Below are positions 17,303 to 53,679 of a stretch of DNA of 53,679 bases, piece after piece. The notes below the pieces were generated by a model. It did no database searches. It was given only the letters and a program-made list of their open reading frames with translations, and was not told the DNA's origin. Positions within the stretch are counted from its first letter, which is position 1; each line of letters begins with the position of its first letter. The position numbers and the translations under genes were made by a program. Source of the stretch: Microbacteriaceae bacterium (GTDB lineage: Bacteria; Actinomycetota; Actinomycetes; Actinomycetales; Microbacteriaceae); NCBI GenBank assembly GCA_947453465.1, contig CANGGL010000005.1, forward strand, positions 1 to 53,679, in the 5' to 3' direction.

Positions 17303-18098
17303 GATGTTCAACACTGGCGACCTCAGGCCCAAGAAAACGTCTGGCTAACTTGCCAAAAGATGCCGCGTCGCCGGTGGCCTGAAAGCGCAGGGTCGGTTGC
17401 GTAAGAGAAGTTCGGAGCAGGTCATGTGCCACAAGGGTTCTGTAGACATCCTTGGCTGTTTCTTCGGCGCTTGAAACCAGGGTCACGTCATCACCCATCA
17501 CATAAGCAATTGCACCGGTCAGCAGCGGATAGTGAGTGCAGCCCAAGACCAAAGTGTCGACACCCGAATCTCTAATCGGCCCCAGGTAAGTCTCGGCAGC
17601 GGCAAGCAGTTCGGGCCCCGATGTGATTCCACGTTCCACGAAATCGACAAAGCTTGGGCAAGCTGCACTGTGAATTTCCAGGTCGACGGCAGCAGCGAAG
17701 GCGTCATCATAGGCTTTTGAGGTGATAGTGGCGTTGGTGCCGATCACGCCGACTTTGCGATTTCTGGTGGCCGAAACGGCACGTCGTACGGCTGGCTGGA
17801 TAACCTCAACCACCGGAATCCCACGACCTTCGGTATAGCGCTCTCGAGCGTCCCTCAGAACCGCTGCGGAAGCCGAATTGCAAGCGATTACCAAGAGTTT
17901 CACGCCCTCGTCAACGAGTCGGTCCATGACCTTGAGTGCCAGTTCGCGCACCTCTGGAATGCTCTTCGGTCCGTATGGCGTGTTTGCGGTGTCGCCGACG
18001 TAAATGATCGACTCGTTGGGTAATTGGTCGATGATTGCGCGAGCTACCGTCAGGCCGCCGACGCCAGAGTCAAAAATACCGATTGGTGCATCATTCAC
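17295..18098 (-). CDS. murI: Glutamate racemase
   Basis: Supplies D-glutamate for peptidoglycan. The 267-residue protein has [12 protein letters not shown] (8-19), the first catalytic cysteine in ACNSASA (Cys73), the second in GCTHYPLL (Cys187), and GDTANTPYG (35-43). The GTG start at 18096-18098 has no Shine-Dalgarno but a TAGACT hexamer ends 7 nt upstream, so it is probably leaderless. Confidence 0.97.
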
Positions 18099-18105
18099 GA
18101 GAACG

Positions 18106-18111
18106 AGTCTA
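18106..18111 (-). promoter_or_regulatory. -10 box for leaderless murI
   Basis: TAGACT, 7 nt, then the murI GTG. It fits TAnnnT at leaderless spacing. Confidence 0.5.
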
Positions 18112-18119
18112 CCTTCGAG

Positions 18120-18407
18120 CTATTTCTCGGGGTTAGCGCTCTTAGGGTCTTCTGGCCTCAAACCATCGTAAATATCTTTACAGGTTGGGCAGATTGGAAA
18201 CTTCTCAGGGTCGCGACCTGGGACCCAAACTTTGCCACACAGAGCAATTACCGGGGTGCCGAGAACGGCTGATTCGACAATCTTTTCCTTGCGCACATAG
18301 TGCGAGTTGCGCTCGTGATCACCGGGATCAACGTTTTGAACCTGCTCCTCGAGCAGAGTCGAGCCGCCGGTTTGTCCGCCAATTCCATCTAGTCCAAAAT
18401 CATCCAT
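18120..18407 (-). CDS. DUF3039 family protein
   Basis: A 95-residue actinobacterial protein of unknown function. It carries the family signature ALCGKVWVPGRDPEKFPICPTCK (about 55-77, written here in parts: CGKVW, then DPEKFPICPTC). The CxxC and the upstream Cys suggest a small zinc-binding fold. There are no membrane segments. The ATG has a GAGGAG 6 nt upstream. It lies 21 bp before murI on the same strand. Confidence 0.88.
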   Translation of the reverse strand: MDDFGLDGIGGQTGGSTLLEEQVQNVDPGDHERNSHYVRKEKIVESAVLGTPVIALCGKVWVPGRDPEKFPICPTCKDIYDGLRPEDPKSANPEK

Positions 18408-18434
18408 GTGAGTCTCCTCGCCACCTAATGCTTG

Positions 18435-19643
18435 TTATTTACCGGCGTCACCCAAGGTTACCTTCAAGGTGACCGACTTGCCGGCTCGAATCAACTCGAG
18501 ATTTGCTCTGGCACCGGCTTTTTCCTGGCGAACAGCGGCCGTGAGCTCGCTGGCCGAGTTGACGGCAACACCGTTGAACTTGGTGATTACATCGCCGACC
18601 AAAACTCCACCCTTCTCGGCAGCTCCGCCAGCGGTGAGCTTTACCACTTTGGCGCCCACCGTGAAACTTGCCGCCGCAGATGAGTTGGTGGTGTCGGTAA
18701 CCATTGCTCCCAAAAGAGCGTGGCTTGCGTGACCGGTCTTCATAATTTCACCGGCGATGCGCTCGGCAACATTCGAAGGAATTGCAAAACCAACTCCGAT
18801 GCTGCCACCGGTGCCTCCCGCGTTAGCAATGGCAACGTTGATACCGATCAACTGGCCCTTCTCGTTTAGCAGGGCACCACCCGAGTTGCCTGGGTTGATG
18901 GCAGCGTCGGTTTGAATTACTCGAAGATTTACCGAGTCACCCGAACCGCTGTAAAGCTGAAGCCCGCCGCCATTCGAATTGTCTGGAGCTGCGGCCGAGG
19001 CCACCTGAATGGTGCGATTCAGCGCAGAAACGATGCCCTTGGTTACCGTGTTGGCCAACCCAAGTGGGGCACCGATAGCAAGCACGGCGTCTCCTACATT
19101 TAGCCTGCTTGAGTCAGCAAAAACAATCGGGGTGAACTTGACCGGCGCATCAACTTTGATTACCGCAAGGTCGTTAGTCGGGTCGGTTCCGACCACTGTC
19201 CCTGGATAAACGTGACCATCAAAGGTTTTCACTTCAATCTTCACGCTGGATGAGGCTCCATCGAGAGTGACCACGTGGGTGTTGGTAAGTAGATAGCCTT
19301 CGGAGTTTAGAAAAACACCGGAACCGTTGCCGGCGGTTGCCGAACTAGAGACAGACACCGTAGCCACCGACGGTGCAGCAGCGGCCGCAGCGGCGGTGAC
19401 CCAAGAGACGCTGTCGGCGTTATTGACAATAACCGGCGCAGGCTGAGTCGAGTAGGTATAGATTCCGATTCCGACCCCAGCACCGACTGCGGCGCCGACC
19501 GAGGCACCAATAATTAGCATGGCAGTGCCGGTGAAGATCGTAGTCTTTTTGGCTAGACGCCGGGCCAATGACAACTTTTTAGCTGGCGTAAACCCCTGAC
19601 TAGGAGTTACTTCGAACAAGAACTGGCGGTTGTAATCAGACAC
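18435..19643 (-). CDS. Membrane-anchored HtrA-like serine protease with PDZ domain
   Basis: Envelope quality-control protease of the DegP/HtrA S1C family. From the N-terminus it has a cytoplasmic basic stretch, one membrane helix (about 35-62), a short linker, the trypsin-like domain with His123 in TNTHVV, Asp158 in TNDLAV and Ser254 in NPGNSGGAL, and one PDZ domain (about 310-395, around GGAAEKGGVLVGDVI). I start it at the GTG 19641-19643, because AAAGG (19650-19654) sits 6 nt upstream. A TTG at 19671-19673 would add ten residues and has no such site. Substrates unknown. Confidence 0.93.
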   Translation of the reverse strand: MSDYNRQFLFEVTPSQGFTPAKKLSLARRLAKKTTIFTGTAMLIIGASVGAAVGAGVGIGIYTYSTQPAPVIVNNADSVSWVTAAAAAAAPSVATVSVSSSATAGNGSGVFLNSEGYLLTNTHVVTLDGASSSVKIEVKTFDGHVYPGTVVGTDPTNDLAVIKVDAPVKFTPIVFADSSRLNVGDAVLAIGAPLGLANTVTKGIVSALNRTIQVASAAAPDNSNGGGLQLYSGSGDSVNLRVIQTDAAINPGNSGGALLNEKGQLIGINVAIANAGGTGGSIGVGFAIPSNVAERIAGEIMKTGHASHALLGAMVTDTTNSSAAASFTVGAKVVKLTAGGAAEKGGVLVGDVITKFNGVAVNSASELTAAVRQEKAGARANLELIRAGKSVTLKVTLGDAGK

Positions 19644-19738: not shown

Positions 19739-20692
19739 CTAATGCATGCAGCCGTAGGCCGATTGATTGCCGATACAGGTCTTAGCGACCAAACGCACCG
19801 ATGAGGTTGGGGCGGCACCATCTGGGACAGAGCCACCTGGGTCGGCGCCTTGGTCTCCGACCGAAACTTCCGCTGAATCGGAAACTGCGATCTCTCCTGC
19901 CGACACCCAGCTCGACTCCCCCGCAATTTGATAGCTGACCGAGTATGTGACCGTAGCCGTCACCGAATAAGTACCAAACTCCGCATAGGAATGCCACGGA
20001 ACAGAACCGGCGGTTGAACCATCGCCATAATTCCAGGATGTTGCAATCGGCTCGAAGCGGACATCGGTTGCTCTGCCCAGGATGCTGCCGGATCGATAAT
20101 GAACCATCGCATCGACTGCCAAAAATGTTTCTTCACCAAGAGCCAGTTGACTCGGGCTCGCGACAACAGTTATCGATGCCGGACTGAAACTTGCCTGACC
20201 GGCACTTGAGCTACTCAAACTGATCACCACCGGAACGTTGACCGGAGGCTTTGCAACCGGCTTCAACACCGGGGCTTTAGGCTTCGGAGTCGACTTGGGG
20301 GCAATTCGCGGAACCGGTTTCGGCGCCGGTTTTAGCAGGGCCGGTGGTGGAGTGAGCTTCGCGGGAGTCAGCAAGATTTTTAGTGCCGGCTTTGGTGCCG
20401 GTTTAGTCACCGGTTTTGGCGCAGGCTTTGGTGCTGCCACCGGCTTCGGGGCCGGTGCTGGCTTCGCAATTGGTTTGGGGGCGGGCTTGGCTACTGCAAC
20501 GGTTCGAGTTTCGACCGCTGCGCGAGCACAGACTGTGACCGAGCCACCGCCGGTTTGGGAGCCGTATGAGAAACCGCCAGACCCTCCCCCGGTAGAACAA
20601 GCCCAAACCGGTGTATTTGAGTAAGGAAACATCACCAAAAGCAGAGTGGCCCCGGCCAGTGCCGTGAGTTGGTTCGGAATCCGCCAGTTCAT
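19739..20692 (-). CDS. Secreted Pro/Lys/Ala-rich protein with PKD-like domain
   Basis: A 317-residue exported protein of unknown role. An N-terminal hydrophobic segment (about 9-32) followed by VWAC looks like a signal peptide, with possible cleavage near that point. Residues about 65-150 form a PAPKP-type repeat stalk, likely extended and suited to crossing the cell wall. A PKD-like beta domain follows, with SWNYGDGSTAG, HSYAEFGTYSVTATV, and a C-terminal tail containing two cysteines (KTCIGN, YGCMH). The start is ATG 20690-20692, with TACCTT ending 7 nt upstream. In-frame GTG and TTG just before are alternatives. Confidence 0.82.
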   Translation of the reverse strand: MNWRIPNQLTALAGATLLLVMFPYSNTPVWACSTGGGSGGFSYGSQTGGGSVTVCARAAVETRTVAVAKPAPKPIAKPAPAPKPVAAPKPAPKPVTKPAPKPALKILLTPAKLTPPPALLKPAPKPVPRIAPKSTPKPKAPVLKPVAKPPVNVPVVISLSSSSAGQASFSPASITVVASPSQLALGEETFLAVDAMVHYRSGSILGRATDVRFEPIATSWNYGDGSTAGSVPWHSYAEFGTYSVTATVTYSVSYQIAGESSWVSAGEIAVSDSAEVSVGDQGADPGGSVPDGAAPTSSVRLVAKTCIGNQSAYGCMH

Positions 20693-20699
20693 GTTCACC

Positions 20700-20705
20700 A
20701 AGGTA
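20700..20705 (-). promoter_or_regulatory. -10 box for leaderless PKD-protein gene
   Basis: TACCTT, 7 nt (GGTGAAC), then ATG. No Shine-Dalgarno is visible. Confidence 0.45.
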
Positions 20706-23796: not shown

Positions 23797-24861
23797 TTAC
23801 TTTGCAGTGCAGGTAGGGAGTGAAGCCGGGTTGGTGCCGGTAGCAATTTTCTCTAGGTCAAACTTTGCCTCGGTTAAAGTCGTGACCTTGATAACGCTCA
23901 GGCCTGCTGGAACATGACCGAGAACCTCATCGCAGTTTGATGCCGGTGCGAGGAATATTGTTGCCCCAGCATTTGAAGCACCAAAGAGTTTGTGTTGAAT
24001 TCCACCAATAGGTCCAACGTTTCCAGCGGCATCAATGGTTCCGGTTCCGGCGATATGTTTTCCTCCGGTTAGCTGCCCCGGGGTCAGTCGGTCAATGATG
24101 CCAAGGGCAAACATCATTCCGCCGCTCGGGCCACCGACGTCGCTGAGTTGTAGTTTCACCTTCACAGGGAAGTCATATTTGTAGCCCGCGAGAATGCCGA
24201 GGCGGTATTTGCCAGTTTTGTCGATGGTGGCCGTGATACTTTCGGTAACCGCCTTCCCGCCTCGGGTTACTTCAACCGAGAGCGGTCCGAAGGGCGCCTT
24301 CTGATTGATGACAGTTCTCAGCTGGTCTACGTCCTTAATTGGAACACCGCTGATTTTCAGGATGAAGTCGGCCGCCACCAGCTTGCCAGCCGATGGACTC
24401 CCCTTGCTGACCTCGCTTACGTAGACGTGCCAAGGCACGGTGTAGCCAAGTTTCATTAGAGCGGCGGCGATTGCCTCTTGCTGGGACTGTTCCATCATCG
24501 CTGTGGATTCAGCTTCAACCTGGGCGGTGCTCACTGCAGGTGGGAACATGACGTCGACCGGCACGATTGCTTCGGCGGGATTCAACCAGGCCAAACCCAA
24601 CTCAAGCCAACTCGGCGTGTTCTCACGATTGCCGACCACACTCACGGTCAGGACATCAAGTTTTCCAGAGGTTTTGTAGGTTTGCGCACCATCGATGGTG
24701 ATCACGTTTATGCCGCCATTTTTACCAAGAACGTCAAAGACTGGGCCCGGCCGTTCAATCACGTATGGAGTGGGCAGAAACACCAATGCAAATAGGCAGC
24801 CCATAAATAGGGCTAGAAAACCTATGCCGGTCAACTTCCGGGCGCGTGACTTATTAGACAT
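23797..24861 (-). CDS. PDZ-containing Lon-like (S16) membrane protease, YlbL type
   Basis: A 354-residue protein with one N-terminal membrane helix (about 10-30), a PDZ domain (about 125-215) and a Lon-type peptidase domain facing outside. The catalytic dyad is visible: Ser246 in GGPSGGM and Lys291 in GGIQHKL. No ATPase domain is present, so it is an energy-independent extracytoplasmic relative of Lon. TACGCT ends 7 nt before the ATG and no Shine-Dalgarno is present, so it is probably leaderless. Its tight link to UPF0182 may mean that protein is a partner or substrate. Confidence 0.92.
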   Translation of the reverse strand: MSNKSRARKLTGIGFLALFMGCLFALVFLPTPYVIERPGPVFDVLGKNGGINVITIDGAQTYKTSGKLDVLTVSVVGNRENTPSWLELGLAWLNPAEAIVPVDVMFPPAVSTAQVEAESTAMMEQSQQEAIAAALMKLGYTVPWHVYVSEVSKGSPSAGKLVAADFILKISGVPIKDVDQLRTVINQKAPFGPLSVEVTRGGKAVTESITATIDKTGKYRLGILAGYKYDFPVKVKLQLSDVGGPSGGMMFALGIIDRLTPGQLTGGKHIAGTGTIDAAGNVGPIGGIQHKLFGASNAGATIFLAPASNCDEVLGHVPAGLSVIKVTTLTEAKFDLEKIATGTNPASLPTCTAK

Positions 24862-24868
24862 TGGATTA

Positions 24869-24874
24869 AGCGTA
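24869..24874 (-). promoter_or_regulatory. -10 box for leaderless ylbL-UPF0182
   Basis: TACGCT, 7 nt (TAATCCA), then ATG. Confidence 0.5.
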
Positions 24875-24982: not shown

Positions 24983-24988
24983 TAGCGT
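24983..24988 (+). promoter_or_regulatory. -10 box for leaderless DUF2342 gene
   Basis: TAGCGT, 6 nt (GGAGGC), then ATG. The GGAGG is only 1 nt from the ATG, too close to work as a Shine-Dalgarno. Confidence 0.45.
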
Positions 24989-24994
24989 GGAGGC

Positions 24995-26287
24995 ATGAAC
25001 CCAGAAGACTTCGAAAAGTTTCTCAAGGACTTTATGGCCGGTAAGGGCGCGGACGCCGCCGAACTGGCCGCTGCTGCCGGAATTCCGAATGACCCAAAAA
25101 TGATCGCCAAGATGGTTGAGCAGTTGCAGGCCGCCCTTGACAACTCTGACAACGCCGATGGATCGGTCAATTGGAAATTGGCCACCGACCAGGCCCGTGC
25201 AATCGCGCGCGAAGGTGGCCACTCGATCGATGACGGCACTCGCAAAACGATTCGCGACGCATTGTCAATTGGCTCGCTTTGGCTGGATGAAGCCACAGCC
25301 ATGCCCGCAATTAACTCGGAACCAAAGTTACTCACCCGCGAACTCTGGGTATCGGATGCAATGCCACTATTTGAGGCTCTCTCAGCCCCGGTGGCGAACC
25401 GCATGAGCGAGGCTCTCGCCCAAAACCTGCGGGATAACGCACCAGAAGAACTTTCATCAATTTTGGGAAATGCCGGAGGTCTAATGCGTTCGGCCGGCGG
25501 CGCGCTTTTTGCAATGCAGTTGGGTCAGGCACTAGGCAAGCTCTCCACCGAGGTACTGACGGGAGGAGACATTGGGCTGCCGATTTTCCAGGACCAGCGG
25601 GCCGCTTTTATCCCGCAGAATCTTGAGGCTTTCGTTGCCGGGCTCGAGGTGGAGGCCGATCAGGCCTACATCTACCTTGGCGTTCGCGAAATGGCTCACA
25701 CTCGCCTTTTCAAGCACAGTAAGTGGCTTCGAGATTCAATAGTCAGTCAAATTTCCAACTATGCGTCAGGCATCACCATTGACAATGACCGCATCTCTGA
25801 AATCGCCGAAGACTTCAGCGCAGCCAACTCGGATGAGTTGAAACGCGCCTTTGAAACCGGCGCATTCCTAGCCGCCCGCTCAGACGAGCAGCAAGTTGCT
25901 CTGGACCGCGTCGAAACAATGCTCGCGCTCATCGAAGGCTGGGTCGATGTCGTGACCGAAGAAGCCACCAGGCTTCTGCCCCGAGCGGCCGCTATCAGCG
26001 AGGCCGTTCGTCGACGCCGTGCCACCGGAGGGCCGGCCGAGCAGACCTTTGGCACCATCGTGGGCCTCGAGTTGAGGCCAAGACGGCTTCGTGAAGCGGC
26101 CGACATGTGGCGTCAACTTGGCACTGCGCTGGGCAAGGATCGAAGAGACACACTCTGGGATCACCCAGACCTCTTGCCAACCGACGAGGACATCGCGGCT
26201 CCAGCAGCCCTAATCGCCAAACTCAATGCCGCCACCTCAATGCCTGATGATTTCGATCAAGCACTCAGGGATCTTCTGGGCGAATAA
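24995..26287 (+). CDS. DUF2342 family, zinc-metalloprotease-like protein
   Basis: A 430-residue soluble protein, usually annotated zinc-dependent metalloprotease. It has a helical N-terminus, a glycine/alanine-rich central region, and the conserved VREMAHTRLFKHSKWLRD stretch (about 229-246), where a HExxH-like element reads REMAH. The first zinc His is thus Arg, and peptidase activity is uncertain. The C-terminal half is helical and acidic. It is the counterpart of mycobacterial Rv3195 by neighbourhood (from memory). It is divergent from ylbL and followed 77 bp later by the ThiF-like gene. Confidence 0.85.
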   Translation: MNPEDFEKFLKDFMAGKGADAAELAAAAGIPNDPKMIAKMVEQLQAALDNSDNADGSVNWKLATDQARAIAREGGHSIDDGTRKTIRDALSIGSLWLDEATAMPAINSEPKLLTRELWVSDAMPLFEALSAPVANRMSEALAQNLRDNAPEELSSILGNAGGLMRSAGGALFAMQLGQALGKLSTEVLTGGDIGLPIFQDQRAAFIPQNLEAFVAGLEVEADQAYIYLGVREMAHTRLFKHSKWLRDSIVSQISNYASGITIDNDRISEIAEDFSAANSDELKRAFETGAFLAARSDEQQVALDRVETMLALIEGWVDVVTEEATRLLPRAAAISEAVRRRRATGGPAEQTFGTIVGLELRPRRLREAADMWRQLGTALGKDRRDTLWDHPDLLPTDEDIAAPAALIAKLNAATSMPDDFDQALRDLLGE

Positions 26288-30087: not shown

Positions 30088-30093
30088 TAACCT
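30088..30093 (+). promoter_or_regulatory. -10 box for leaderless APH-fold gene
   Basis: TAACCT, 7 nt (CAAATAC), then ATG at 30101. It supports that ATG over the in-frame TTG at 30083, which would swallow the hexamer. Confidence 0.55.
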
Positions 30094-30100
30094 CAAATAC

Positions 30101-31240
30101 ATGGCCAAATCTCCCTTGATTTTAGCTGCGCTAGCTAAGGATGCTGTTCGTCACATCGATTTCGTTCAGGTGAAAAGCTTGAACGCGGGCACCGACGGCG
30201 CTTTCGACACAGCTCTGTTGACCGCGACAACCGGTGAGCACTACGTGGTTCGCATCGCAAACACTCAATCAGCCGGCACCGAACAAGAAGTCGAACTTCA
30301 GGCCCTTCGGGCTCTTGGCTCAGAGGGTCGAGCCGCGCTCCCCTTCAAAATCACCAGTTTGATTGGCGAGACCAAGGATGACAAGGGCGCCCGCGCCCTG
30401 ATCTTCGACTTCGTATACGGCAGCCCGATCGACGTCTCATCGGTAAGCGGAGACAGCGAACTGGCCCGAAACATTGGCCTTGCGATTGCAGCAATTCACA
30501 ATCTGCCGCTAGCAGTAGTTGAGAACGCTCACCTGCCTGAATTTCAGCCGAATGACATTTTGAACGCGCGGATCGCTGAACTAGACCGATTTGCCGCCAC
30601 CGGCAAAGTTCCTTCGGCGCTGTTATCGCGCTGGGAGGCTGTCCTTGAAGATGTAAACCTTTTCAGGTTCCAACCAACCGTGGTTCACGGTGCGCTTAAC
30701 GGCGACACCGTTCTCGAAGAGGATGGTCGCTCCGTGGCCGGAGTATTGGCTTGGAGCAGCCTGAAAATAAGCGACCCGGCCGAAGATCTCGCTTGGATTT
30801 TAGGGTCTGAAAATGACCCGTTTGCTGACGCAGTGCTTGCTTCTTACGTGGCAAACCGCTCGGGCTCCGACAATGCCCTTCGGCAGCGCGCAGTGCTCTA
30901 CAGCGAGTATGAGCGTGCCCGCTGGCTAATGCACGGCGTCAACAAGGGCGACCAGTCAATCATTGATGATGCTGTTCAAATGCTGAACACCCTTGCAGAG
31001 GACGTGGAGTCAGGCGCAATTGGACGCCTCACCGCCGCACCAATCGCGGTTCCGATTTCACAGCCGATTGTTGAAGAGTCTTTCCAAAGTTTCGTAACCG
31101 TTGAATCTGATGAAGAATTTGAAATCATCGAAGTAAACGAAACTTTCGTGGCAGAGGAAGCGCCTGAGGAATTCGAGATTGTCGACGACAAGACTCGCCC
31201 AATTGAGCTTCCCGAAAAATCTGACAACGAACTTTTCTAG
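30101..31240 (+). CDS. Aminoglycoside/macrolide phosphotransferase-fold protein, probable pseudokinase
   Basis: 379 residues with the APH kinase fold: N-lobe VVRIA (about 49-53), then the catalytic-loop region VVHGALNGDTV (194-204). Active APH enzymes read HGDLHxxN there; here the catalytic Asp is Ala198 and the metal Asn is Thr203. The second metal Asp (usually IDW) is replaced in VLAW (215-218). SDPAEDLAWIL is retained. A very acidic tail (about 310-379, rich in Glu, Phe and Val) follows. Relatives are often labelled macrolide 2'-phosphotransferase, but the lost residues argue against kinase activity or resistance. It ends 16 bp from convergent adnB. Confidence 0.82.
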   Translation: MAKSPLILAALAKDAVRHIDFVQVKSLNAGTDGAFDTALLTATTGEHYVVRIANTQSAGTEQEVELQALRALGSEGRAALPFKITSLIGETKDDKGARALIFDFVYGSPIDVSSVSGDSELARNIGLAIAAIHNLPLAVVENAHLPEFQPNDILNARIAELDRFAATGKVPSALLSRWEAVLEDVNLFRFQPTVVHGALNGDTVLEEDGRSVAGVLAWSSLKISDPAEDLAWILGSENDPFADAVLASYVANRSGSDNALRQRAVLYSEYERARWLMHGVNKGDQSIIDDAVQMLNTLAEDVESGAIGRLTAAPIAVPISQPIVEESFQSFVTVESDEEFEIIEVNETFVAEEAPEEFEIVDDKTRPIELPEKSDNELF

Positions 31241-37400: not shown

Positions 37401-37602
37401 TCAGAATCTGAGCCGGCAGGATATTTTCGACGGCTGAGTAAAAAAGCGCCTTAGCTGCCTCGGTTTTGCCAGAACCCGGTGCTCCGTAAACCGTGGCCAC
37501 GGAGGCGAGGCCAAGATTTGCCACCGCCAATTGACTCGAAGACAAGCTCGAGCGAGGCAGGCGCTCCGAGCGAGTGGTGCTCCGAAACTTTGCCTCTGTC
37601 AT
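34420..37602 (-). CDS. adnA: AdnA-like helicase-nuclease subunit
   Basis: Partner subunit of AdnB, 1060 residues. Walker A GAPGSGKT (40-47) is intact. Motif II reads VVDDAQELT and motif III GDPDASTLGFRAAD, weaker than in AdnB. The C-terminal nuclease has FAKCPLHWF (Cys817), SLVHKALELG, the catalytic VMIVDLKTGAKAF and QLGLYQMAFE. The tail motif expected as CxxCxxxxxC reads Cys1039-xx-Ser1042-xxxxx-Cys1048. I start it at the ATG 37600-37602, because TAGTTT ends 7 nt upstream and relatives begin at about this distance before Walker A. An ATG at 37630-37632 is possible; earlier ones would run into the divergent DUF3107 gene. Confidence 0.91.
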   Translation of the reverse strand: MTEAKFRSTTRSERLPRSSLSSSQLAVANLGLASVATVYGAPGSGKTEAAKALFYSAVENILPAQILMLAGNRDSANQLRDQLALGFQGATPGPLAKTLTSVAFGVLRLKALKEGSRLPELISGSEQDRIIAQVITDFVEGGLPEVSSSWPAHFNRQVIELNGFRAELRDLITICLEHGLSASDLEKLGALHDKPEWAVSARFYEKYLAQVSTPAFESRYDASSLLRLASQWLSSEAHWPAELMDIRLIVVDDAQELTPAALKLLQVLAGSSRGLVLVGDPDASTLGFRAADPRAMANLADAVAIARRGKTETIFITPNHEVRPVELSNVLSRVNRQIDTARAGRQRKSLVQSGDSPVGDSSSSQVEVKVFTQATGEVAWLARRLRELHLFEKVAWSEIAVVARSRANLENLAVALANESVPVHILGAQAPLRDEFAARTLLQIADLALNPKPIDANLAVELLTSIISGLDSLGIRRLRRALRREELLADGTRNSDELLVALFDAPEALATIRGAEARKAERFLTVFNGARLIAEDLQQSIEDLLWHIWSGSGLAKNWQTLSLGTGEVALQANRDLDATVTLFAAANRYAERNPGGDPRVFVAQQLSLGLPEDTLALNDSNAQRVTLTTPAGLLGRRFKVVALPQLIEGVWPNLRPRSSLLGATVLDALKNGRIAEVTKTAKSELPDELRMLYKSIGAAGQRLIVSTTDSDDNQISQFIGLINGEIPDREVYVGSQLTLRGLSGSLRRYLAKSGSQSELDSAALGLARLASAGVAGAHPDSWYGMLAVSTSEPLVDLSDPESQVWLRPSQLEDFAKCPLHWFLNAHGGGDNTFSANLGSLVHKALELGVDVNEESLWGLVESKWHTLSFESAWLEQTGERKAKRMISNMVQYLRRFEAEGGKVIGREVNFEFETGRARVRGQVDRLELYPDGRVMIVDLKTGAKAFTAEEARQHAQLGLYQMAFESGAFAGLPELSTATELAGAKLLLVGTSDKAVERDQPPLSDSPTAKADFDRLIESATSGMAMSERIFVAQIDSHCNNSNEFGSCQIHLTKAVSYGG

Positions 37603-37609
37603 GCCGTCA

Positions 37610-37615
37610 AAACTA
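37610..37615 (-). promoter_or_regulatory. -10 box for leaderless adnA-adnB
   Basis: TAGTTT, 7 nt (TGACGGC), then ATG at 37602. Confidence 0.5.
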
Positions 37616-38197: not shown

Positions 38198-38971
38198 CTA
38201 TGCGGTTAGCCCCAGCGCATCCATGCGGATGGTGTGGGCGCCGATCAGCTCTGAAATCAGCGGCTCAATCTTCGAATAAGCCGACAGGTTGAGTTCGCGC
38301 TCCTCGGCTACGGTCAACTTCTTTGTCTTCGGGAAGCCGGCAAGCTTGCGGTTATCAAAAGCGCTGCGCAATTCAAGCAGCACATCGCCCATCAGGCGGC
38401 GACCCCAAAGTGCAAGATCTGATGCCAATGCAGGGTCAGCTGCCATTGACTCGAGCAGCACCCGTTTGGCAAAGGCCTCAAACTTCTTGTCATTCAGCGC
38501 CTTTTCGACATCAAGTTTCAGAGCTTGTTCCAAGCCCACGGCTAGGCGGCTGTAAAAATCATCCAACAGCCCAGAAACCAAGTAGACCTTGATGATGCTC
38601 TCGTGCCAGCTGTGACCGGTGGTGCCTGAGTGAAAAGTCTCGATTCGCTCGACAAATGGGTCCATGGCATCGGTCGGGTCAATGCCCAAGCCAGCCAGCT
38701 TTTTCGAGATCGCACGGTACTTCTCGAAGCTCTTGGCGGCGGCCTCTGAAAGCTCAGCTTTGTACTGGGTCTTCGGTGAAAACTTGAGCTCATTGGTCAG
38801 AATCTCAAACTGACTCAGCTGCAGGTATGCCAACTGCCCAAGGAAGACCTTTGGCTCTGGGGTGTACGGCTTGAGGTCGATCGCCTCCATGTTGCGGGCG
38901 CCGCGCTCTTCTCGGGCCGGCAAGGTGAGCTTGCGGGCGCCGGTGCGCAGTCGCTTGAACCAATCGAACAT
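38198..38971 (-). CDS. Ferritin-like fold protein (tRNA-hydroxylase-like)
   Basis: 257 residues, mostly alpha-helical, of the actinobacterial ferritin-like family distantly related to MiaE; position matches Rv3210c (from memory). Helices include LGQLAYLQLSQFEILTNEL (about 44-62), LSEAAAKSFEKYRAISKKL (about 74-92) and WHESIIKVYLVSGLLDDFY (about 121-139). Acidic residues are present, but a clear pair of ExxH diiron motifs is not (EKYR where ExxH would be expected), so metal binding and hydroxylase activity are doubtful. TATTCT ends 6 nt before the ATG. Confidence 0.75.
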   Translation of the reverse strand: MFDWFKRLRTGARKLTLPAREERGARNMEAIDLKPYTPEPKVFLGQLAYLQLSQFEILTNELKFSPKTQYKAELSEAAAKSFEKYRAISKKLAGLGIDPTDAMDPFVERIETFHSGTTGHSWHESIIKVYLVSGLLDDFYSRLAVGLEQALKLDVEKALNDKKFEAFAKRVLLESMAADPALASDLALWGRRLMGDVLLELRSAFDNRKLAGFPKTKKLTVAEERELNLSAYSKIEPLISELIGAHTIRMDALGLTA

Positions 38972-38977
38972 CCTTCA

Positions 38978-38983
38978 AGAATA
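38978..38983 (-). promoter_or_regulatory. -10 box for leaderless ferritin-like gene
   Basis: TATTCT, 6 nt (TGAAGG), then ATG. AAGG touches the ATG and is too close to be a Shine-Dalgarno. Confidence 0.5.
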
Positions 38984-40593: not shown

Positions 40594-41475
40594 CTACAGC
40601 TGAGCCTGAACCCCGGAGGCCATCGCCAAAATCCGCTCGAACATCTCGACCGAGGTGTGGTTTTCACCGAGGCGATTCGGCTTGCCGTGCTCGCCATGAT
40701 AATCGCTCGAGCCGGTGACAATAAGGTCGTGTTTATCGGCCAGGTCCAGCAACCATTCACGCGCAACCTGCGGCACTTCGCGGTGATAAACCTCGAAGCC
40801 GGCTAGCCCGCCAGCGATTAGCAGCTCGAAGTGCTCCTGCGGTAGGTCGCCGCGATCAAGATTGTCTGGCGCACCACCTAGCGGGTGGGCGATAATCGGC
40901 ACTCCCCCGGCTTCGCGAATCAAACGGATGGCGTCGAAGACATCGGCGGTTTCTGCCGGTATGTAATAGCCGCCGTTCTTCGAAAGAATCGACTCGAATG
41001 CTTCGCTCCGATGTGAAACCACGCCCATCTGCACTAAAGCGTCAGCAAGAGCCGGGCGACCGATGGTCGCCCCTTCGGTCAACTGTTCGAGCACAAGATC
41101 CCAGGTGATGTCATAATCCTTGGCAAGCAGGTCAACCATGGCCTTGGCCCGGATTTCGCGCGTGCTCACCGAGTCTCCGAGCACCGAGGCCAGAGCGGCA
41201 TGATTTGGGTCTGGCAAATAGGCAAGCATGTGAACGCTAATGAATCGCTCGTGACCCTCACGCTGCACTTTGGCGCGCGTGGTCACTTCAATTCCGGGCA
41301 CAAATCCCAGCCCAAGCCGCTTGGCAGCTACTCCCGCTTCATCCCAGCCTGAAGTCGTGTCATGGTCGGTGAGGGCCAGGATGTTCACTCCGGCGAGCGC
41401 GGCCTGCTCGAACACCTCGGTCGGTGACTCTTTGCCGTCTGAGCGAGTTGAGTGTGAATGCAGGTCAATAATCAT
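40594..41475 (-). CDS. PHP-domain phosphoesterase (YciV/RNase AM-like)
   Basis: 293-residue metal-dependent hydrolase. The PHP metal ligands appear in DLHSHSTRSDG (4-14), ALTDHDT (about 34-40), PIIAHPLG, and the late TGSSDYHGEHG. YciV-type relatives remove 5' nucleotides from RNA or dephosphorylate 3',5'-bisphosphate nucleosides. TAATCT ends 7 nt before the ATG and no Shine-Dalgarno is seen. Confidence 0.9.
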   Translation of the reverse strand: MIIDLHSHSTRSDGKESPTEVFEQAALAGVNILALTDHDTTSGWDEAGVAAKRLGLGFVPGIEVTTRAKVQREGHERFISVHMLAYLPDPNHAALASVLGDSVSTREIRAKAMVDLLAKDYDITWDLVLEQLTEGATIGRPALADALVQMGVVSHRSEAFESILSKNGGYYIPAETADVFDAIRLIREAGGVPIIAHPLGGAPDNLDRGDLPQEHFELLIAGGLAGFEVYHREVPQVAREWLLDLADKHDLIVTGSSDYHGEHGKPNRLGENHTSVEMFERILAMASGVQAQL

Positions 41476-41482
41476 CTAGCCC

Positions 41483-41488
41483 AGATTA
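41483..41488 (-). promoter_or_regulatory. -10 box for leaderless PHP gene
   Basis: TAATCT, 7 nt (GGGCTAG), then ATG. Confidence 0.5.
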
Positions 41489-43497: not shown

Positions 43498-43503
43498 TAA
43501 GGT
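43498..43503 (+). promoter_or_regulatory. -10 box for leaderless MgtE_N/CBS gene
   Basis: TAAGGT, 6 nt (TGAAGG), then ATG at 43510. Confidence 0.5.
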
Positions 43504-43509
43504 TGAAGG

Positions 43510-44745
43510 ATGAGCGCAACGAGAGTTTTTGTAGCCAGACTGGCTGGCTGTGGCGTCTTTGACCCAGCGGGAGACCGTGTTGGAAAAGTCATCGACGTTC
43601 TCGTCTCGTACCGTAAATCAGGCGCCCCAAAGGCCACCGGCATGCTGGTTGAAATCAGCGGCCGCCGCCGAGTCTTTGTGCCGATTGCCAGGGTCACCTC
43701 AATTTCTGCCGGCCAGGTGATCACCACCGGTCTAATTGACCTTCGCCGCTTCACCCAGCGCGGGCAAGAGGTTCGCGTAATTGCCGAAATTCTGGGTCGC
43801 AAAGTCGGTCTACTCGATGGCTCTGGCAGTGCCAGCATCGAAGACCTGGCTATTGAACTTGGCAAGAACAGCGACTGGGTGGTTTCAGAGCTATTTCTTC
43901 GTCGCCCTAAGACTTCAGCATCACCATTTGCCCGCGGTGCCACGCTTTTCGCAGCCTGGGAGCAGGTGGTTGAAGAGGGTAAGACCGAAGAAGGTCAGAG
44001 CGCTCAGCAGCTGATTGCCACCTATTCGGAACTTCGCCCAGCCGACCTCGCTAGCGCACTCTTGGACCTACCCGATGAGCGAATGATCGAGGTGGCGGAA
44101 GAGCTAGATGACGAACGCCTCGCGGACGTTCTCGAGGAGCTGCCAGAAGACGAGCAGATCGACATCATCGCCGAACTAGATGATGAACGTGCCGCAGAAG
44201 TTTTGGACCTGATGGAGCCGGATGACGCGGCCGACCTGATGGCAAATCTTCCGGTTGAGCGAACCGAAGCCATCCTGGATTTGATGGACGAAGAAGAAGC
44301 AGACGACATTCGTATGTTGATGCAGTTCGACGAATTTACCGCGGGTGGCTTGATGACCACAGAGCCAATTATTTGCGCCGCCGATGCAACCGTTGCCGAG
44401 GCGATGGCCCTGATTCGCCGCAAGGATGTTGCACCGGTTCTGGCTGCATCTGTTTTTGTCACCCTTCCGCCTTATGAGGTTGCCACCGGGCGTTACCTGG
44501 GTGTCGTGCACTTCCAGAAGATGTTGCGCTACCCGCCACATGAGCGCCTGGGCAGCCTGCTAGACACCGAACTCGAGCCGGTAAAACCAGACACTCACAT
44601 CTCGGTGATTCACCGAACCTTTGCAAACTACAACCTTGTGGCCCTGCCGGTTGTTGACGATGAAAACCGACTAATCGGCGTGGTCACCGTTGACGACGTT
44701 CTCGACCACCTGCTGCCTGACGACTGGCGAGAGGAGGGGCGCTAA
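43510..44745 (+). CDS. MgtE N-domain and CBS-pair protein without a channel domain
   Basis: 411 residues. A PRC-barrel-like N-terminus (about 1-75: VFDPAGDRVGKVIDVLV) leads to MgtE_N superhelix repeats rich in Asp/Glu (about 175-270: LDDERLADVLEELPEDEQ and similar) and two CBS domains (about 275-345 and 355-405: LVALPVVDDENRLIGVVTVDDVLD). There is no transmembrane domain, so it cannot itself carry Mg2+. It resembles the cytoplasmic Mg2+-sensing half of MgtE and may sense Mg2+ or nucleotides. The stop overlaps the DUF1003 start (TAATG). Confidence 0.9.
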   Translation: MSATRVFVARLAGCGVFDPAGDRVGKVIDVLVSYRKSGAPKATGMLVEISGRRRVFVPIARVTSISAGQVITTGLIDLRRFTQRGQEVRVIAEILGRKVGLLDGSGSASIEDLAIELGKNSDWVVSELFLRRPKTSASPFARGATLFAAWEQVVEEGKTEEGQSAQQLIATYSELRPADLASALLDLPDERMIEVAEELDDERLADVLEELPEDEQIDIIAELDDERAAEVLDLMEPDDAADLMANLPVERTEAILDLMDEEEADDIRMLMQFDEFTAGGLMTTEPIICAADATVAEAMALIRRKDVAPVLAASVFVTLPPYEVATGRYLGVVHFQKMLRYPPHERLGSLLDTELEPVKPDTHISVIHRTFANYNLVALPVVDDENRLIGVVTVDDVLDHLLPDDWREEGR

Positions 44746-46359: not shown

Positions 46360-46365
46360 TAGGTT
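46360..46365 (+). promoter_or_regulatory. -10 box for leaderless two-component operon
   Basis: TAGGTT, 6 nt (TGAAAT), then ATG at 46372. Confidence 0.5.
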
Positions 46366-46371
46366 TGAAAT

Positions 46372-47022
46372 ATGCCAGGTCGATCAAGAAGAGTACTCAT
46401 CGTTGAAGATGAACAGCTAGTTTCAACCCTGTTGGAGCAGACCCTTCAGTCCATTAATTTTCTGACCAGCCGCGCCCAAAACGCCGTCGAGGCGAAACGC
46501 AAGATCGAGGCATTCGATCCGGACATCGCACTCCTCGATATTGACCTGGGACCGGGCGCCAACGGCATCGATGTTGCCCACATTCTGGCCAAGAAGCACC
46601 CAGACATCGCGATTCTGTTTTTGACCAAGTTTCCTGACCTTCGATCAGCCGGTTTGAAGATGGAAGACCTTCCTCCCGGCTGCGGTTTCCTTCGTAAGGA
46701 ATTGGTGGGTAACACCGAGTACCTGGTAAATGCCATCGACAACGTTCTCGGCGAGCGCCCCGAGGTGCGAGACGACCTTCTGCCTGATCGTCCACTTTCC
46801 GGCCTAACAAAAAATCAGGTCGATGCGCTTCGACTGCTGGCCAGCGGGTATACCAACGCCGAGATCGCTCGTCGTCGTGACACTTCCGTGTCCTCGGTCG
46901 AGCAGTTGCTGAATTCAACTTTCAAGAATCTCGGCATCCAACAGAGTGACGACCTGAACCCTCGAATTGAGGCGGTTCGCATCTTTATTCAGGCAGCCGG
47001 AATCCCTAAAAGGGACAGCTAG
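46372..47022 (+). CDS. Response regulator, NarL/LuxR type
   Basis: 216 residues. The receiver domain (about 7-125) has acidic pocket VEDE (11-14), phospho-acceptor Asp in LLDIDLG (about 54-60), the Thr in FLTKF and the Lys in FLRKE. A LuxR-type helix-turn-helix follows (about 143-200: LTKNQVDALRLLASGYTNAEIA). It is a transcription factor controlled by the sensor kinase that follows, whose GTG overlaps this stop (TAGTG). Targets unknown. Confidence 0.9.
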   Translation: MPGRSRRVLIVEDEQLVSTLLEQTLQSINFLTSRAQNAVEAKRKIEAFDPDIALLDIDLGPGANGIDVAHILAKKHPDIAILFLTKFPDLRSAGLKMEDLPPGCGFLRKELVGNTEYLVNAIDNVLGERPEVRDDLLPDRPLSGLTKNQVDALRLLASGYTNAEIARRRDTSVSSVEQLLNSTFKNLGIQQSDDLNPRIEAVRIFIQAAGIPKRDS

Positions 47023-48805: not shown

Positions 48806-48811
48806 TAGAGT
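48806..48811 (+). promoter_or_regulatory. -10 box for leaderless aldehyde dehydrogenase gene
   Basis: TAGAGT, 6 nt (TGGGGA), then ATG at 48818. Confidence 0.5.
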
Positions 48812-48817
48812 TGGGGA

Positions 48818-50338
48818 ATGAGCGAAACCAGCATCCCTGCACTTCTAAGCCACTTGCCTTCTGCCCGTACCTCGGTGTCGGTTATCAACCCGGTGAATGC
48901 TAAAAAGATATACGACCTGCCGCAGCTATCGGCAGATGATGTTATCGACGCGATCGAGCGCACCAGGGCCGCTCAGCCCGCTTGGGCAGCACTCTCGCCA
49001 GGTGAGCGAGCGAAACTTTTGCTAACTCTGCACGATGCGCTGATGAGCAACCAGGACCGCCTTCTTGACCTCTTGCAGCTGGAAACCGGCAAGGCTCGAT
49101 CACACGCATTCGAGGAGGTCGCCGGGGCTTATGGCGCCGCCCGCTACTTTGGAAAAATTTCAGCGAAGACTCTGCATCCCAAGAAAACCAAGGCAGGCGT
49201 TCCGATTCTGACTAAGACCTGGGTTGAGCGCACTCCCCTTGGCGTGGTCGGTGTAATCACACCGTGGAATTACCCATTGGCGCTGACCATGCTTGATGTT
49301 CTCCCCGCCCTGGCCGCAGGAAACACCGTGATCCAGAAGGCGGACAACCAGACTGCCTTGACCGTTTTGTTTGCTCGACAACTGGCCATCTCGGCCGGCA
49401 TCCCTGCCGAGGCCTGGACAGTGGTGGTTGGCGATGGAGCAGAGGTGGGCAATGCCATTACCGATCACGCCGACTACGTAGCCTTCACCGGCTCGACTGC
49501 AACCGGCCGTATGGTCGCCGAGCGTGCGGCTAAGCGACTCATCGGTTACTCACTTGAATTGGGCGGTAAAAACCCAATGATTGTGCTGGAGGGCGCCAAT
49601 CTAAAGCGCGCTGCCGACCTAGCGATGGCCGGAGCTTTTGGCTCGGCCGGCCAACTTTGCGTCTCGCTCGAACGCGTGTACGTGCCCAACCACCTAAAAG
49701 ATGCTTTCGTTGCAGAACTAGGCTCCCGAACTCGCTCGCTTGCCGTTGGCAATTCAAAAGATTTCAGCATGGACATGGGAACCTTGGCTGGCCAAGCCCA
49801 GCTTTCACGCGTTTCAGGCTTTATCGAAGACGCCACCCAAGCCGGGGCAACCTTGGTTGCCGGCGGGCACGCCTTGCCCGAATTGGGACCCTACTTTTAT
49901 GAACCGACGGTGCTCACCGATGTTCCGGCCGCGGCAAAACTATCTCGTCAAGAGGTCTTCGGTCCGGTGCTCGACGTCGAGGGTTACGACGGCATCGAAG
50001 ATGCGATCCGACTGGCCAACGACACCGAGTACGGCCTGAATGCATCCGTGGTTGGCCCAAAGCGTGAGGCACTAAAGGTTGCTTCACGCCTAATGGCAGG
50101 CAGTGTCAACATCAACGAGGGTTTCCGCGCAACTTTTGCATCCATGGAATCACCAATGGGTGGAATGAAGCAATCCGGCAAGGGTCGCCGCAATGGGCCC
50201 GAGGGTCTCTTGCGTTTCACCGATGCACGGACGGTTGGTCTAGCTTCGAACCTACTGAAGCTTCCACTGCGCGGCCGCGACTACAACCGAATGGCACCCC
50301 TGATGGTGACCATGATGAAGTTTCTACGTCGCTTCTGA
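48818..50338 (+). CDS. Aldehyde dehydrogenase, succinate-semialdehyde type
   Basis: NAD(P)-dependent aldehyde oxidation. 506 residues: PWNYP (149-153, with catalytic Asn151), TGSTATG (nucleotide site), general base Glu247 in ELGGKNP, nucleophile Cys281 in GQLCVS, and EVFGPVL near the end of the catalytic domain. Best guess is succinate-semialdehyde dehydrogenase; the substrate is not fixed by sequence alone. The 3' end overlaps convergent tatB by 15 bp. Confidence 0.9.
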   Translation: MSETSIPALLSHLPSARTSVSVINPVNAKKIYDLPQLSADDVIDAIERTRAAQPAWAALSPGERAKLLLTLHDALMSNQDRLLDLLQLETGKARSHAFEEVAGAYGAARYFGKISAKTLHPKKTKAGVPILTKTWVERTPLGVVGVITPWNYPLALTMLDVLPALAAGNTVIQKADNQTALTVLFARQLAISAGIPAEAWTVVVGDGAEVGNAITDHADYVAFTGSTATGRMVAERAAKRLIGYSLELGGKNPMIVLEGANLKRAADLAMAGAFGSAGQLCVSLERVYVPNHLKDAFVAELGSRTRSLAVGNSKDFSMDMGTLAGQAQLSRVSGFIEDATQAGATLVAGGHALPELGPYFYEPTVLTDVPAAAKLSRQEVFGPVLDVEGYDGIEDAIRLANDTEYGLNASVVGPKREALKVASRLMAGSVNINEGFRATFASMESPMGGMKQSGKGRRNGPEGLLRFTDARTVGLASNLLKLPLRGRDYNRMAPLMVTMMKFLRRF

Positions 50339-50698
50339 GTCGTAAGGCGCAGCTTCGCCGGAAACCAGCGGTTTACTCTTTGGCTGCGCGGTCACCTTCG
50401 CGGCGTTAAGCCCCGAACCCAGAGGTGCACTGGCAGCAGAGTTTAGATCCTCTACCAAAGCTTCGCGAATAATTCTCCGAGGGTCATACTGCCTTGGGTC
50501 AAGCTTTTTCCAGTCGAGGTCCTGATACTCCGGACCCAACTCGTTGGCCAATTGATCCTTGGCGCCTTCGGCCATCCGCCGAACCGACTTAATTAGGTTG
50601 GCAAGCTGCTTCGCATACTGTGGCAGTCGCTCTGGTCCAAGCACAAATGCAGCAATAATCACCAGGATGATTAGCTTTTCGCCACTTAGACCGAACAC
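50324..50698 (-). CDS. tatB: Sec-independent translocase protein TatB
   Basis: Twin-arginine translocation receptor subunit. 124 residues: MFGLSGEKLIILVIIAAFVLGPERLPQYA pattern (membrane helix about 7-22, then GPERLP hinge), an amphipathic helix (about 24-50) and a disordered tail rich in Pro, Ala and Asp. FGLSxEK and GPERLP favour TatB over TatA. GTG start with TAATCT 6 nt upstream. The location near Mrp and the O-methyltransferase matches actinobacteria. Confidence 0.92.
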   Translation of the reverse strand: MFGLSGEKLIILVIIAAFVLGPERLPQYAKQLANLIKSVRRMAEGAKDQLANELGPEYQDLDWKKLDPRQYDPRRIIREALVEDLNSAASAPLGSGLNAAKVTAQPKSKPLVSGEAAPYDSEAT

Positions 50699-50704
50699 TC
50701 TTCC

Positions 50705-50710
50705 AGATTA
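50705..50710 (-). promoter_or_regulatory. -10 box for leaderless tatB
   Basis: TAATCT, 6 nt (GGAAGA), then GTG at 50698. Confidence 0.5.
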
Positions 50711-51792: not shown

Positions 51793-52872
51793 CTATGCGG
51801 TCAACCATTTGCGCAGGGCGGACTCGCAGGCATAGATCTGGCTGACCGGAACATTCTCGTCATCGGCGTGGGCCTTGCTTGGGTCACCCGGTCCAAAGTT
51901 GATTGCCGGGATTCCCAGTGCGCTAAATCTAGCGACATCGGTCCAGCCATACTTAGGTCGCGGTGTGGTCTGTGTGGCTTCCAAAAATGCCATCGCTTCC
52001 GGGCGGTCCAATCCTGGGCGGGCGCCCTCGGCAGAATCGGTAATCACTACTTCGAAGCCCTCAAACACCTCACGAAGGTGCGCCTCGGCATCCAGCGCCG
52101 ATTTGCTCGGTGCAAAACGATAGTTGACGGTCACCTTGACCTCGTCCGGAATGACGTTTGTGGCGATGCCTCCACTAATCAAAACCGCATTGAGGCTTTC
52201 CCGATAAACCAAACCATCGACTTCAATCTCATCCGTGACGTGCTCGTCGAGAATAGTCAGAAGCTTGGCGGACCCATGGATGGCGTTTTTGCCCATCCAA
52301 GGTCTCGCCGAGTGCGCCTTGACTCCACGAAGAGTGATGTCGGCGCGCATAGTTCCGTTGCAGCCACCCTCAACCATCGCGCCCGTCGGTTCGCAAAGCA
52401 CTGCAAAATTGGCGTTCAACAGCTCGGGGCGGTTGCGAGAAATTCGACCAAGACCGTTGAGGCTGGCATCGACTTCTTCGTGGTCATAGAAAATCCAGGT
52501 GAGGTCCACGTTTGGCTCGGCCAATTCGGCGGCAAGCTTCAGTTGAACTGCCACTCCAGCCTTCATGTCAACTGTGCCGCGGCCCCACAAAACCTGCTCG
52601 CGCTCCATAGGCAAAAACTTGACCGGCAGGTTGTCGGCAACCGGCACGGTGTCGATGTGCCCGGCGATAACCACGCGCGATGCTCGACCTAGGTTGGTGC
52701 GTGCGATGACTGCGTCAGCATCACGAATAACCTCAAGGTGGGGGTAATGACGGAGCGCAGATTCGATGGCATCGGCAAGTTGCTTTTCGTTGCCTGAAAC
52801 AGATTCGATGTCACAGATATCGCGGGTCAACTCGACCACATCGGCGGTTAGATTTAGGGTTACGGCAGCCAT
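51793..52872 (-). CDS. dapE: Succinyl-diaminopimelate desuccinylase
   Basis: M20 zinc hydrolase releasing LL-diaminopimelate from its N-succinyl form for lysine and peptidoglycan. 359 residues: AGHIDTVP (first His and Asp ligands), [11 protein letters not shown] (bridging Asp), FYDHEEVD (catalytic Glu and Glu ligand), and INFGPGD near the C-terminus. The actinobacterial type is shorter than the proteobacterial one. TAGGCT ends 6 nt before the ATG. Divergent from dapD, which supplies its substrate pathway. Confidence 0.95.
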
Positions 52873-52878
52873 ACAACG

Positions 52879-52884
52879 AGCCTA
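52879..52884 (-). promoter_or_regulatory. -10 box for leaderless dapE
   Basis: TAGGCT, 6 nt (CGTTGT), then ATG at 52872. Only 5 bp separate it from the dapD -10 box on the other strand. Confidence 0.5.
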
Positions 52885-52889
52885 ACTTG

Positions 52890-52895
52890 TAACCT
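52890..52895 (+). promoter_or_regulatory. -10 box for leaderless dapD
   Basis: TAACCT, 7 nt (TGTAGCT), then ATG at 52903. Confidence 0.55.
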
Positions 52896-52902
52896 TGTAG
52901 CT

Positions 52903-53679
52903 ATGACACAGGCAAGCTTTTTAGATTCTCACGCATGGGGCCACGGCCTTGCGACCATGGCAAACGATGGAACCATCCTCGACGTTTGGTACCCAACTCC
53001 TGCCCTCGGCAGCGCTCCTAGCGATTCAAATGCCGGGGCCCAACTAACCGAGCTTGCTGGCGAAGACGCCCGCCGAAACGTCAGCCTCAAGGTTGTCCTA
53101 ACCGAGATTGACTTGACTCAACCGGTCACCGGCACAGCTGACGCCTACCTTCGCCTGCACTTACTTTCACACCTTCTGGTGAAGCCAAACACCATCAACC
53201 TCGATGGGTTGATCCCGAATCTCCCGATTGTTGCCTTCACAAACGTTGGCCCGGTGGCGCTTGATGATCTTGAGCTGCTTCGTCCGGCACTGACCCGTCA
53301 GGGCATCAGCGTCTATGCAATCGACAAGTTCCCTCGTCTGGTTGATTATGTGACCCCGAAAAAGGTTCGAATTGCCGATGCCTCGCGTGTGCGTCTCGGC
53401 GCCCACCTGAGCCCTGGCACGACAATCATGCACGAGGGTTTTGTGAACTTTAATGCGGGCACCCTTGGCACCTCGATGGTCGAGGGTCGCATCTCACAGG
53501 GTGTTGTGGTTGGTGATGGTGCCGACATCGGTGGTGGAGCATCGATCATGGGCACCCTTTCGGGTGGCGGCAAGGAGCGCGTTGCAATTGGCGCTCGAGC
53601 ATTGCTCGGTGCAAACGCTGGCGTTGGAATATCGATCGGCGATGACACCGTAGTTGAAGCCGGGCTCTATGTAACCGCT
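52903..53679 (+). CDS. dapD: Tetrahydrodipicolinate N-succinyltransferase, 3' end cut by window
   Basis: Transfers succinyl from succinyl-CoA to tetrahydrodipicolinate, the committing step of the succinylase lysine/DAP pathway. 259 codons are present with no stop; about 60 residues should lie outside the window. The N-terminal actinobacterial-type domain begins [13 protein letters not shown]. The left-handed beta-helix hexapeptide repeats follow ([20 protein letters not shown], then [18 protein letters not shown], then [17 protein letters not shown]). It works with dapE and lysA. Confidence 0.95.

Follow-up and report, generated by a model that had tools for sequence, protein, structure and literature searches.

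Fourteen genes in a 53,679-nt stretch of DNA from a Microbacteriaceae bacterium (GCA_947453465.1, contig CANGGL010000005.1, positions 1 to 53,679, forward strand; the whole stretch is hereafter the window) were preceded by the hexamer TAnnnT at a distance of 6 or 7 nt from the start codon. These boxes are very probably housekeeping -10 elements that give leaderless mRNAs, and two of them stand back to back between the divergent genes dapE and dapD. A first-pass annotation of the window had proposed leaderless expression for the same fourteen genes, and this reading was supported by a genome-wide peak at 6-7 nt, by retention of the box in orthologs, by a restriction to ATG and GTG starts and by the lack of a detectable -35. 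All fourteen boxes that it reported were located (Table 1), although the genes divided seven and seven between the two spacings rather than eight at 6 nt and six at 7 nt.

Genes were called in 449 kb of the 1,425-kb genome, consisting of the window and 20 further stretches (395 kb) of an assembly that is 85% complete. The caller was based on a hexamer coding model, chose starts from coding signal and start-codon type only and was blind to upstream motifs. The 365 of 370 called genes with at least 60 nt upstream were used for counts. TAnnnT was present at 6 nt before 51 of these starts and at 7 nt before 12, together 63/365 (17%, about one gene in six), while none of the remaining spacings between 0 and 40 nt gave more than 6 boxed starts (range 0-6). 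With 6,609 internal in-frame start codons of the same sample as background, 1.0 and 1.7 boxed starts were expected at the two spacings (2.7 in sum). The window alone contributed 10 boxed starts out of 47, against an internal start-codon rate of 0.74% (binomial P = 2e-12), and with the window removed there were still 44 (6 nt) and 9 (7 nt) out of 318 starts. A complete genome of the same genus (G016), sampled over 456 kb of its 1,338 kb, gave 56 and 15 out of 414 starts with 0-8 at other spacings. Across both strands of the whole own genome, the box at 6 nt before ATG matched 271 times compared to 138 times for the reversed pattern. The first-pass annotation had named the lack of a genome-wide peak at 6-7 nt as evidence that would count against leaderless expression; in these samples of two genomes the peak was present.

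The boxes were also retained in related genomes. Orthologs were taken from seven genomes of the same genus, in the dapE neighbourhood on the side that corresponds to the window. One of the seven (G005) yielded only dapE and dapD from among the fourteen. An ortholog was scored as boxed if the box preceded a start codon no more than 12 codons away from the aligned one. Orthologs of the fourteen genes were boxed in 57/68 cases compared to 5/163 for 35 other window genes (Fisher P 1e-36), and control spacing pairs clear of 6 and 7 gave 0-11 of the 68. The boxed orthologs used ATG or GTG and had the box at 6 nt (34) or 7 nt (23); at each of the spacings 3, 4, 5, 8, 9 and 10 there were 0-2 orthologs. 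No ortholog of the PKD-domain gene or of the response regulator was present within the dapE-side stretches, and a separate genus-wide search was used for these two.

Start-codon usage differed between boxed and unboxed genes. In the own sample and G016 combined, TTG starts were boxed in 1/75 cases and ATG or GTG starts in 133/703 (P 6e-6). In mycobacteria, a 5'-end ATG or GTG was reported to be necessary and sufficient and TTG ineffective (Shell et al. 2015, PMC4633059), so a near-absence of boxed TTG would be expected if the start codon were the 5' end of the mRNA. The base at -1 was a pyrimidine ahead of 77/107 boxed starts with 6-nt spacing and 21/27 with 7-nt spacing, compared to 292/644 unboxed starts. 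This is in line with the pyrimidine-purine rule for transcription start sites, and both trends agree with transcription that begins at the codon's first base in either spacing class.

Shine-Dalgarno (SD)-like 4-mers (AGGA, GGAG, GAGG or AAGG, 3-13 nt ahead of the start) preceded 7/63 boxed starts in the own sample compared to 140/302 unboxed starts, with an internal background of 9.3%. The contrast drawn earlier between boxed genes without an SD and other genes with one thus held for the set. Two of the fourteen genes did have such a 4-mer, namely murI (13 nt) and the MgtE_N gene (7 nt), the latter being an AAGG within the box itself. The 16S anti-SD end was present in 3/8 same-genus genomes searched, so SD-led and leaderless initiation coexist within the genus. 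The own assembly and the other 5/8 genomes lacked the anti-SD pattern, which reads as putatively absent rRNA contigs rather than loss.

The 134 boxed starts of the two genomes were used as a promoter set. The preferred box was TA(G/A)NCT followed by T and then by G or A, unlike TATAAT, with G (57%) or A (30%) at position 3, C (56%) at position 5 and T (57%) as the next base. In agreement with the earlier remark that -35 boxes are not recognisable, no -35 signal was found in this set with four motif variants at 15-20 nt spacing against mononucleotide shuffles (best-match z -0.2 to 1.6), and neither position-wise information nor trinucleotide enrichment revealed a convincing one. With T at position -3 in 17% of the 63 own promoters, an extended -10 (TGn) was considered and rejected.

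The two boxes between dapE and dapD lie 5 bp apart in the window, and a distance of 31 bp would separate the two start sites. The upstream part of each promoter falls within the first codons of the other gene. Within the genus both boxes were mostly kept at a variable distance from each other, and the CTTG between them was also kept in many genomes. The spacer was mostly 28-31 bp in the Rhodoluna lineage and Aquiluna. At the level of the order, 106 dapE loci were collected from relatives and the best 80 matches listed among named genomes (8 loci incomplete), and dapD was beside dapE on the other strand in 98 of them. TAnnnT at 6 or 7 nt was present on both sides in 88/98 pairs, on the dapE side only in 5 and on the dapD side only in 5, so each side was boxed in 93/98. 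Non-overlapping control spacings gave 0-1 of 98, as did the reversed motif at every spacing. The spacers ranged from 17 to 210 bp with one of 628 bp. A 17-bp spacer with one shared TAAYCTA was present at eight loci, of which six are from Cryobacterium and the others from Humibacter and a genome labelled Microbacterium sp. STN6, and three Agrococcus pairs had a 23-bp spacer with boxes sharing TA.

A class-wide draw of 79 genomes, with dapE detected in 71 at an E value of 1e-30, extended the comparison by 68 further loci (28 + 40); this set leaves out genome G181 and two second copies, and one locus (L172) is from the same genome as another (L039). Adjacent and divergent dapD was found in 35/68 loci and both sides were boxed in 24 of these 35, compared to 0-2 of 35 at non-overlapping spacings. 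Fifteen of the 24 double-boxed pairs had a 17-18 bp spacer with one shared TANNNTA, which was TACSGTA flanked by two GTG codons in 14 of the 15, and four had a 22-24 bp spacer with boxes sharing TA. The smallest form is the 17-bp spacer, in which a single symmetrical TANNNTA that can be read on either strand has 5 nt at each end. With the duplicate removed, 112/132 pooled divergent pairs carried a box on either side and 20/132 did not; spacers in the 112 measured 17-18 bp (23 pairs), 22-24 bp (7), 28-32 bp (24) and 38 bp or more (58); at least two near-duplicate rows (L035/L077 and L030/L074) remain in the pooled set. The 17-18 bp form occurred in nine family-label groups (f14, f16, f26, f32, f36, f40, f41, f43 and f44) in addition to Microbacteriaceae (f1). 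On a quick dapE tree of 173 rows the shared state needed 10 changes, and well-supported branches forced at least 3. One dapE/dapD locus (L125) came from a contig titled Stenotrophomonas maltophilia P13, and its dapE grouped inside Microbacterium; it is probably a contaminant in that public assembly.

These patterns suggest a mechanism. RNA polymerase with the principal (sigma-70 type) sigma factor would recognise the -10, which dominates to the extent that no -35 would be needed, and the start codon's first base would be the first transcribed, to give an mRNA without a 5' leader, on whose 5'-terminal AUG or GUG ribosomes would initiate directly. Between dapE and dapD the polymerase footprints would overlap and be bound in one orientation at a time, an either/or arrangement in which the two genes would share and compete for one binding site. 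In many other actinobacteria a single symmetrical -10 between dapE and dapD can be read both ways, and transcription would leave it in both directions. It is fairly likely, on these comparisons of sequence, that in Actinobacteria a single polymerase-binding site, with its -10 element or elements between the two start codons, drives dapE one way and dapD the other with both mRNAs leaderless, and the shared form may be ancestral to the class.

Several observations weigh against these readings or limit their reach. Eleven of the 68 orthologs lacked a box, retention being partial in the ylbL-like (1/5), PHP (3/6), DUF2342 (3/5) and adnA-like (2/3) genes, and the response regulator was boxed in 1/2 close orthologs and 3/19 non-self homologs overall. 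In the window, the -1 base was a pyrimidine in only 8/14 genes and a purine in 6/14, so these fourteen do not show the trend seen in the larger sample. The purines occurred in 4/7 genes with 6-nt spacing (MiaE_2 gene, G; MgtE_N, G; aldehyde dehydrogenase, A; tatB, A) and 2/7 with 7-nt spacing (ylbL-like, A; PHP, G), and these six may have a one-base leader. As for dapE/dapD, dapD was not found in the stretch beside dapE in 33/68 class-level loci, pairs were not boxed on both sides in 10/98 cases at order level and 11/35 at class level, and a spacing of 8-9 was also seen at class level (both sides in 2/35). The 17-bp shared-box pattern showed no genome-wide excess in 100 family genomes (109 matches compared to 114 for the reversed pattern, an imperfect control since TA and AT differ in frequency), and the shared form is therefore a property of the dapE/dapD pair in these data.

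Two other explanations were considered for the boxes as a whole. They could be ordinary -10 elements whose transcripts begin slightly upstream of the codon or a few bases into it, with translation from another start that has an SD, and the six genes with a purine at -1 would be compatible with this. However, the spacing is fixed at 6 or 7 nt with no spread, the near-exclusion of TTG goes beyond what a purine-start preference of a pure transcription signal would explain, and SD-like 4-mers are near background ahead of the boxed starts, which makes such an arrangement highly unlikely. That the boxes arose by chance and were selected by the reader from among many TAnnnT hexamers draws some plausibility from the looseness of the motif and from some matches in the window that have a different spacing or precede unlikely open reading frames, but with blind-called starts the observed number exceeded the expected more than twentyfold, the window by itself departed from the background rate and orthologs kept the box, and the probability left to chance is negligible.

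For dapE/dapD, a further possibility is that the spacer was kept for a regulator, for example a lysine-responsive one, with the likeness to a -10 being secondary. The CTTG kept between the boxes in many genomes of the genus would suit a regulator site. The spacer length varies widely over the order, yet boxes at 6 or 7 nt are kept on both sides in most pairs, and the middle bases differ by lineage (TAAYCTA, TACSGTA), so regulator binding appears an improbable reason for the conservation. Promoter boxes for two leaderless mRNAs remain the preferred account of the spacer.

The window's set belongs to a known kind, TANNNT leaderless genes having been described already. TA-led leaderless genes were identified in Actinobacteria (about 20%) and Deinococcus-Thermus by Zheng et al. 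(2011, PMC3160421), whose TANNNT has its first T about 12 bp upstream, equivalent to the 6-nt spacer, and whose proportion is comparable to the share of boxed starts here. The main text of that paper contains none of the words Leifsonia, Clavibacter and Microbacter. In Mycobacterium tuberculosis about a quarter of the genes with a primary transcription start site were leaderless, with TANNNT, no -35 motif, -10 dominance and a preferred purine start (Cortes et al. 2013, PMC3898074). No base preference was noted there within NNN, in contrast to the preference found here, where the set is known from sequence alone. The restriction to RTG starts resembles that of Shell et al. (2015, PMC4633059), which was derived from reporters and ribosome profiling. 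Together these three studies bear out the earlier statement that leaderless mRNAs are known in actinobacteria. No report of leaderless transcripts in Microbacteriaceae was found among open-licence papers, in which no search aimed at Rhodoluna was made. On the evidence of sequence, the present analysis adds the family's Rhodoluna lineage, streamlined and freshwater, to the known range of the trait.

Bidirectional promoters with a shared -10 have been described in E. coli, where start sites were mostly 18 and also 10 or 23 bp apart, polymerases competed, and separate divergent promoters were not counted as bidirectional (Warman et al. 2026, PMC12825309). The dapE/dapD pairs of the relatives match this geometry, their spacers of 17-18 and 22-24 bp corresponding to predicted start-site distances of 18-19 and 23-25 bp. 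Unlike the E. coli promoters, both dap RNAs would be leaderless, with start codons serving as start sites. The window's own pair has no shared -10 and falls outside the class because separate divergent promoters are excluded from it. No report of leaderless or bidirectional dapE/dapD transcription was found in the open-licence literature, and dapE/dapD on a shared or back-to-back -10 with both mRNAs putatively leaderless is a new combination of two known kinds. If it is true, polymerase orientation would set the ratio of two enzymes of the lysine/diaminopimelate pathway with no leader and no separate promoter region. The loci form a natural series of shared -10, overlapping boxes, back-to-back boxes and separate promoters, and are suited to testing, without an intervening leader, how polymerases compete at bidirectional promoters and how this affects enzyme stoichiometry within one pathway.

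Table 1. Putative promoter boxes and start codons of the fourteen window genes, with the dapE/dapD spacer
Feature	Position	Strand	Box	Spacing	Start codon	Orthologs boxed
murI (glutamate racemase)	18096..18111	-	TAGACT 18106-18111	7 nt	GTG 18098	6/6
PKD-domain gene	20690..20705	-	TACCTT 20700-20705	7 nt	ATG 20692	
ylbL-like (PDZ, Lon_C)	24859..24874	-	TACGCT 24869-24874	7 nt	ATG 24861	1/5
DUF2342/Zincin_2	24983..24997	+	TAGCGT 24983-24988	6 nt	ATG 24995	3/5
APH-fold gene	30088..30103	+	TAACCT 30088-30093	7 nt	ATG 30101	6/6
adnA-like helicase-nuclease (UvrD helicase + PDDEXK_1)	37600..37615	-	TAGTTT 37610-37615	7 nt	ATG 37602	2/3
ferritin-like MiaE_2 gene	38969..38983	-	TATTCT 38978-38983	6 nt	ATG 38971	6/6
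PHP gene	41473..41488	-	TAATCT 41483-41488	7 nt	ATG 41475	3/6
MgtE_N/CBS gene	43498..43512	+	TAAGGT 43498-43503	6 nt	ATG 43510	6/6
response regulator	46360..46374	+	TAGGTT 46360-46365	6 nt	ATG 46372	
succinic semialdehyde/aldehyde dehydrogenase	48806..48820	+	TAGAGT 48806-48811	6 nt	ATG 48818	5/5
tatB	50696..50710	-	TAATCT 50705-50710	6 nt	GTG 50698	6/6
dapE	52870..52884	-	TAGGCT 52879-52884	6 nt	ATG 52872	7/7
dapD	52890..52905	+	TAACCT 52890-52895	7 nt	ATG 52903	6/7
dapE/dapD spacer, 30 bp	52873..52902	.	6 nt, putative dapE -10 (reverse), 5 nt, putative dapD -10, 7 nt			

Domain and family matches in Pfam and NCBIfam agreed with the gene labels given earlier, the names ylbL and adnA having domains as their only basis. 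The dapD gene is cut by the window end, and its partial protein scored 403.6 bits against DapD_actino, for which the whole-protein cut-off is 441.5. Four of the fourteen starts were not those chosen by the blind caller: the PKD-domain gene was uncalled, the APH-fold and adnA-like genes were given other starts and dapD runs off the window. The starts of the first-pass annotation were accepted for these four because homologs keep the box. For the APH-fold gene, coding signal alone pointed to a start at 30083 while the box and orthologs pointed to 30101, and for the adnA-like gene the corresponding positions were 37632 and 37602. The leaderless box can in this way aid start-codon annotation in the Rhodoluna lineage.

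In the genus-wide search, 7/7 non-self homologs of the PKD-domain gene with an aligned N-terminus were boxed, a count with 1 to 6 candidate starts per homolog and without a spacing control, and 5 further hits lacking an aligned N-terminus were skipped. The seven boxed homologs share 27-44% identity with the window protein (gene at 19739-20701), which by sequence comparison changes rapidly while its start signal is stable.

Genes internal to operons had been described as lying outside the leaderless class, and this did not hold. Where the gap to a preceding same-strand gene was at most 30 nt, 13/138 genes were boxed in the own sample and 16/162 in G016. In the other upstream contexts, boxed starts in the two genomes were 31/108 and 35/126 behind an opposite-strand gene, 13/60 and 14/62 at same-strand gaps of 31-100 nt, and 5/51 and 5/59 at gaps over 100 nt. 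In the window, a same-strand gene lies 21 nt ahead of murI, 30 nt ahead of the response regulator and 50 nt ahead of the aldehyde dehydrogenase gene. Genes close behind another are under-represented yet included, murI among them. The proposed link of the class to stress and DNA repair is a putative one based on a handful of genes.

Divergent pairs other than dapE/dapD, which was excluded since dapD is cut off, were boxed on both sides in 7/54 cases in the own sample. These included C2:2510/2541 (L005) with a 30-bp spacer between NAD(P)H-hydrate dehydratase and NADH:flavin oxidoreductase genes, C7:3700/3733 (L016) with a 32-bp spacer, C2:32824/32858 (L006) with a 33-bp spacer and a box 14 codons upstream of the called start, C2:56761/56815 (L007) with a 53-bp spacer, and C3:33284/33367 (L009) with an 82-bp spacer between COX3 and a glycosyltransferase-3 family gene.

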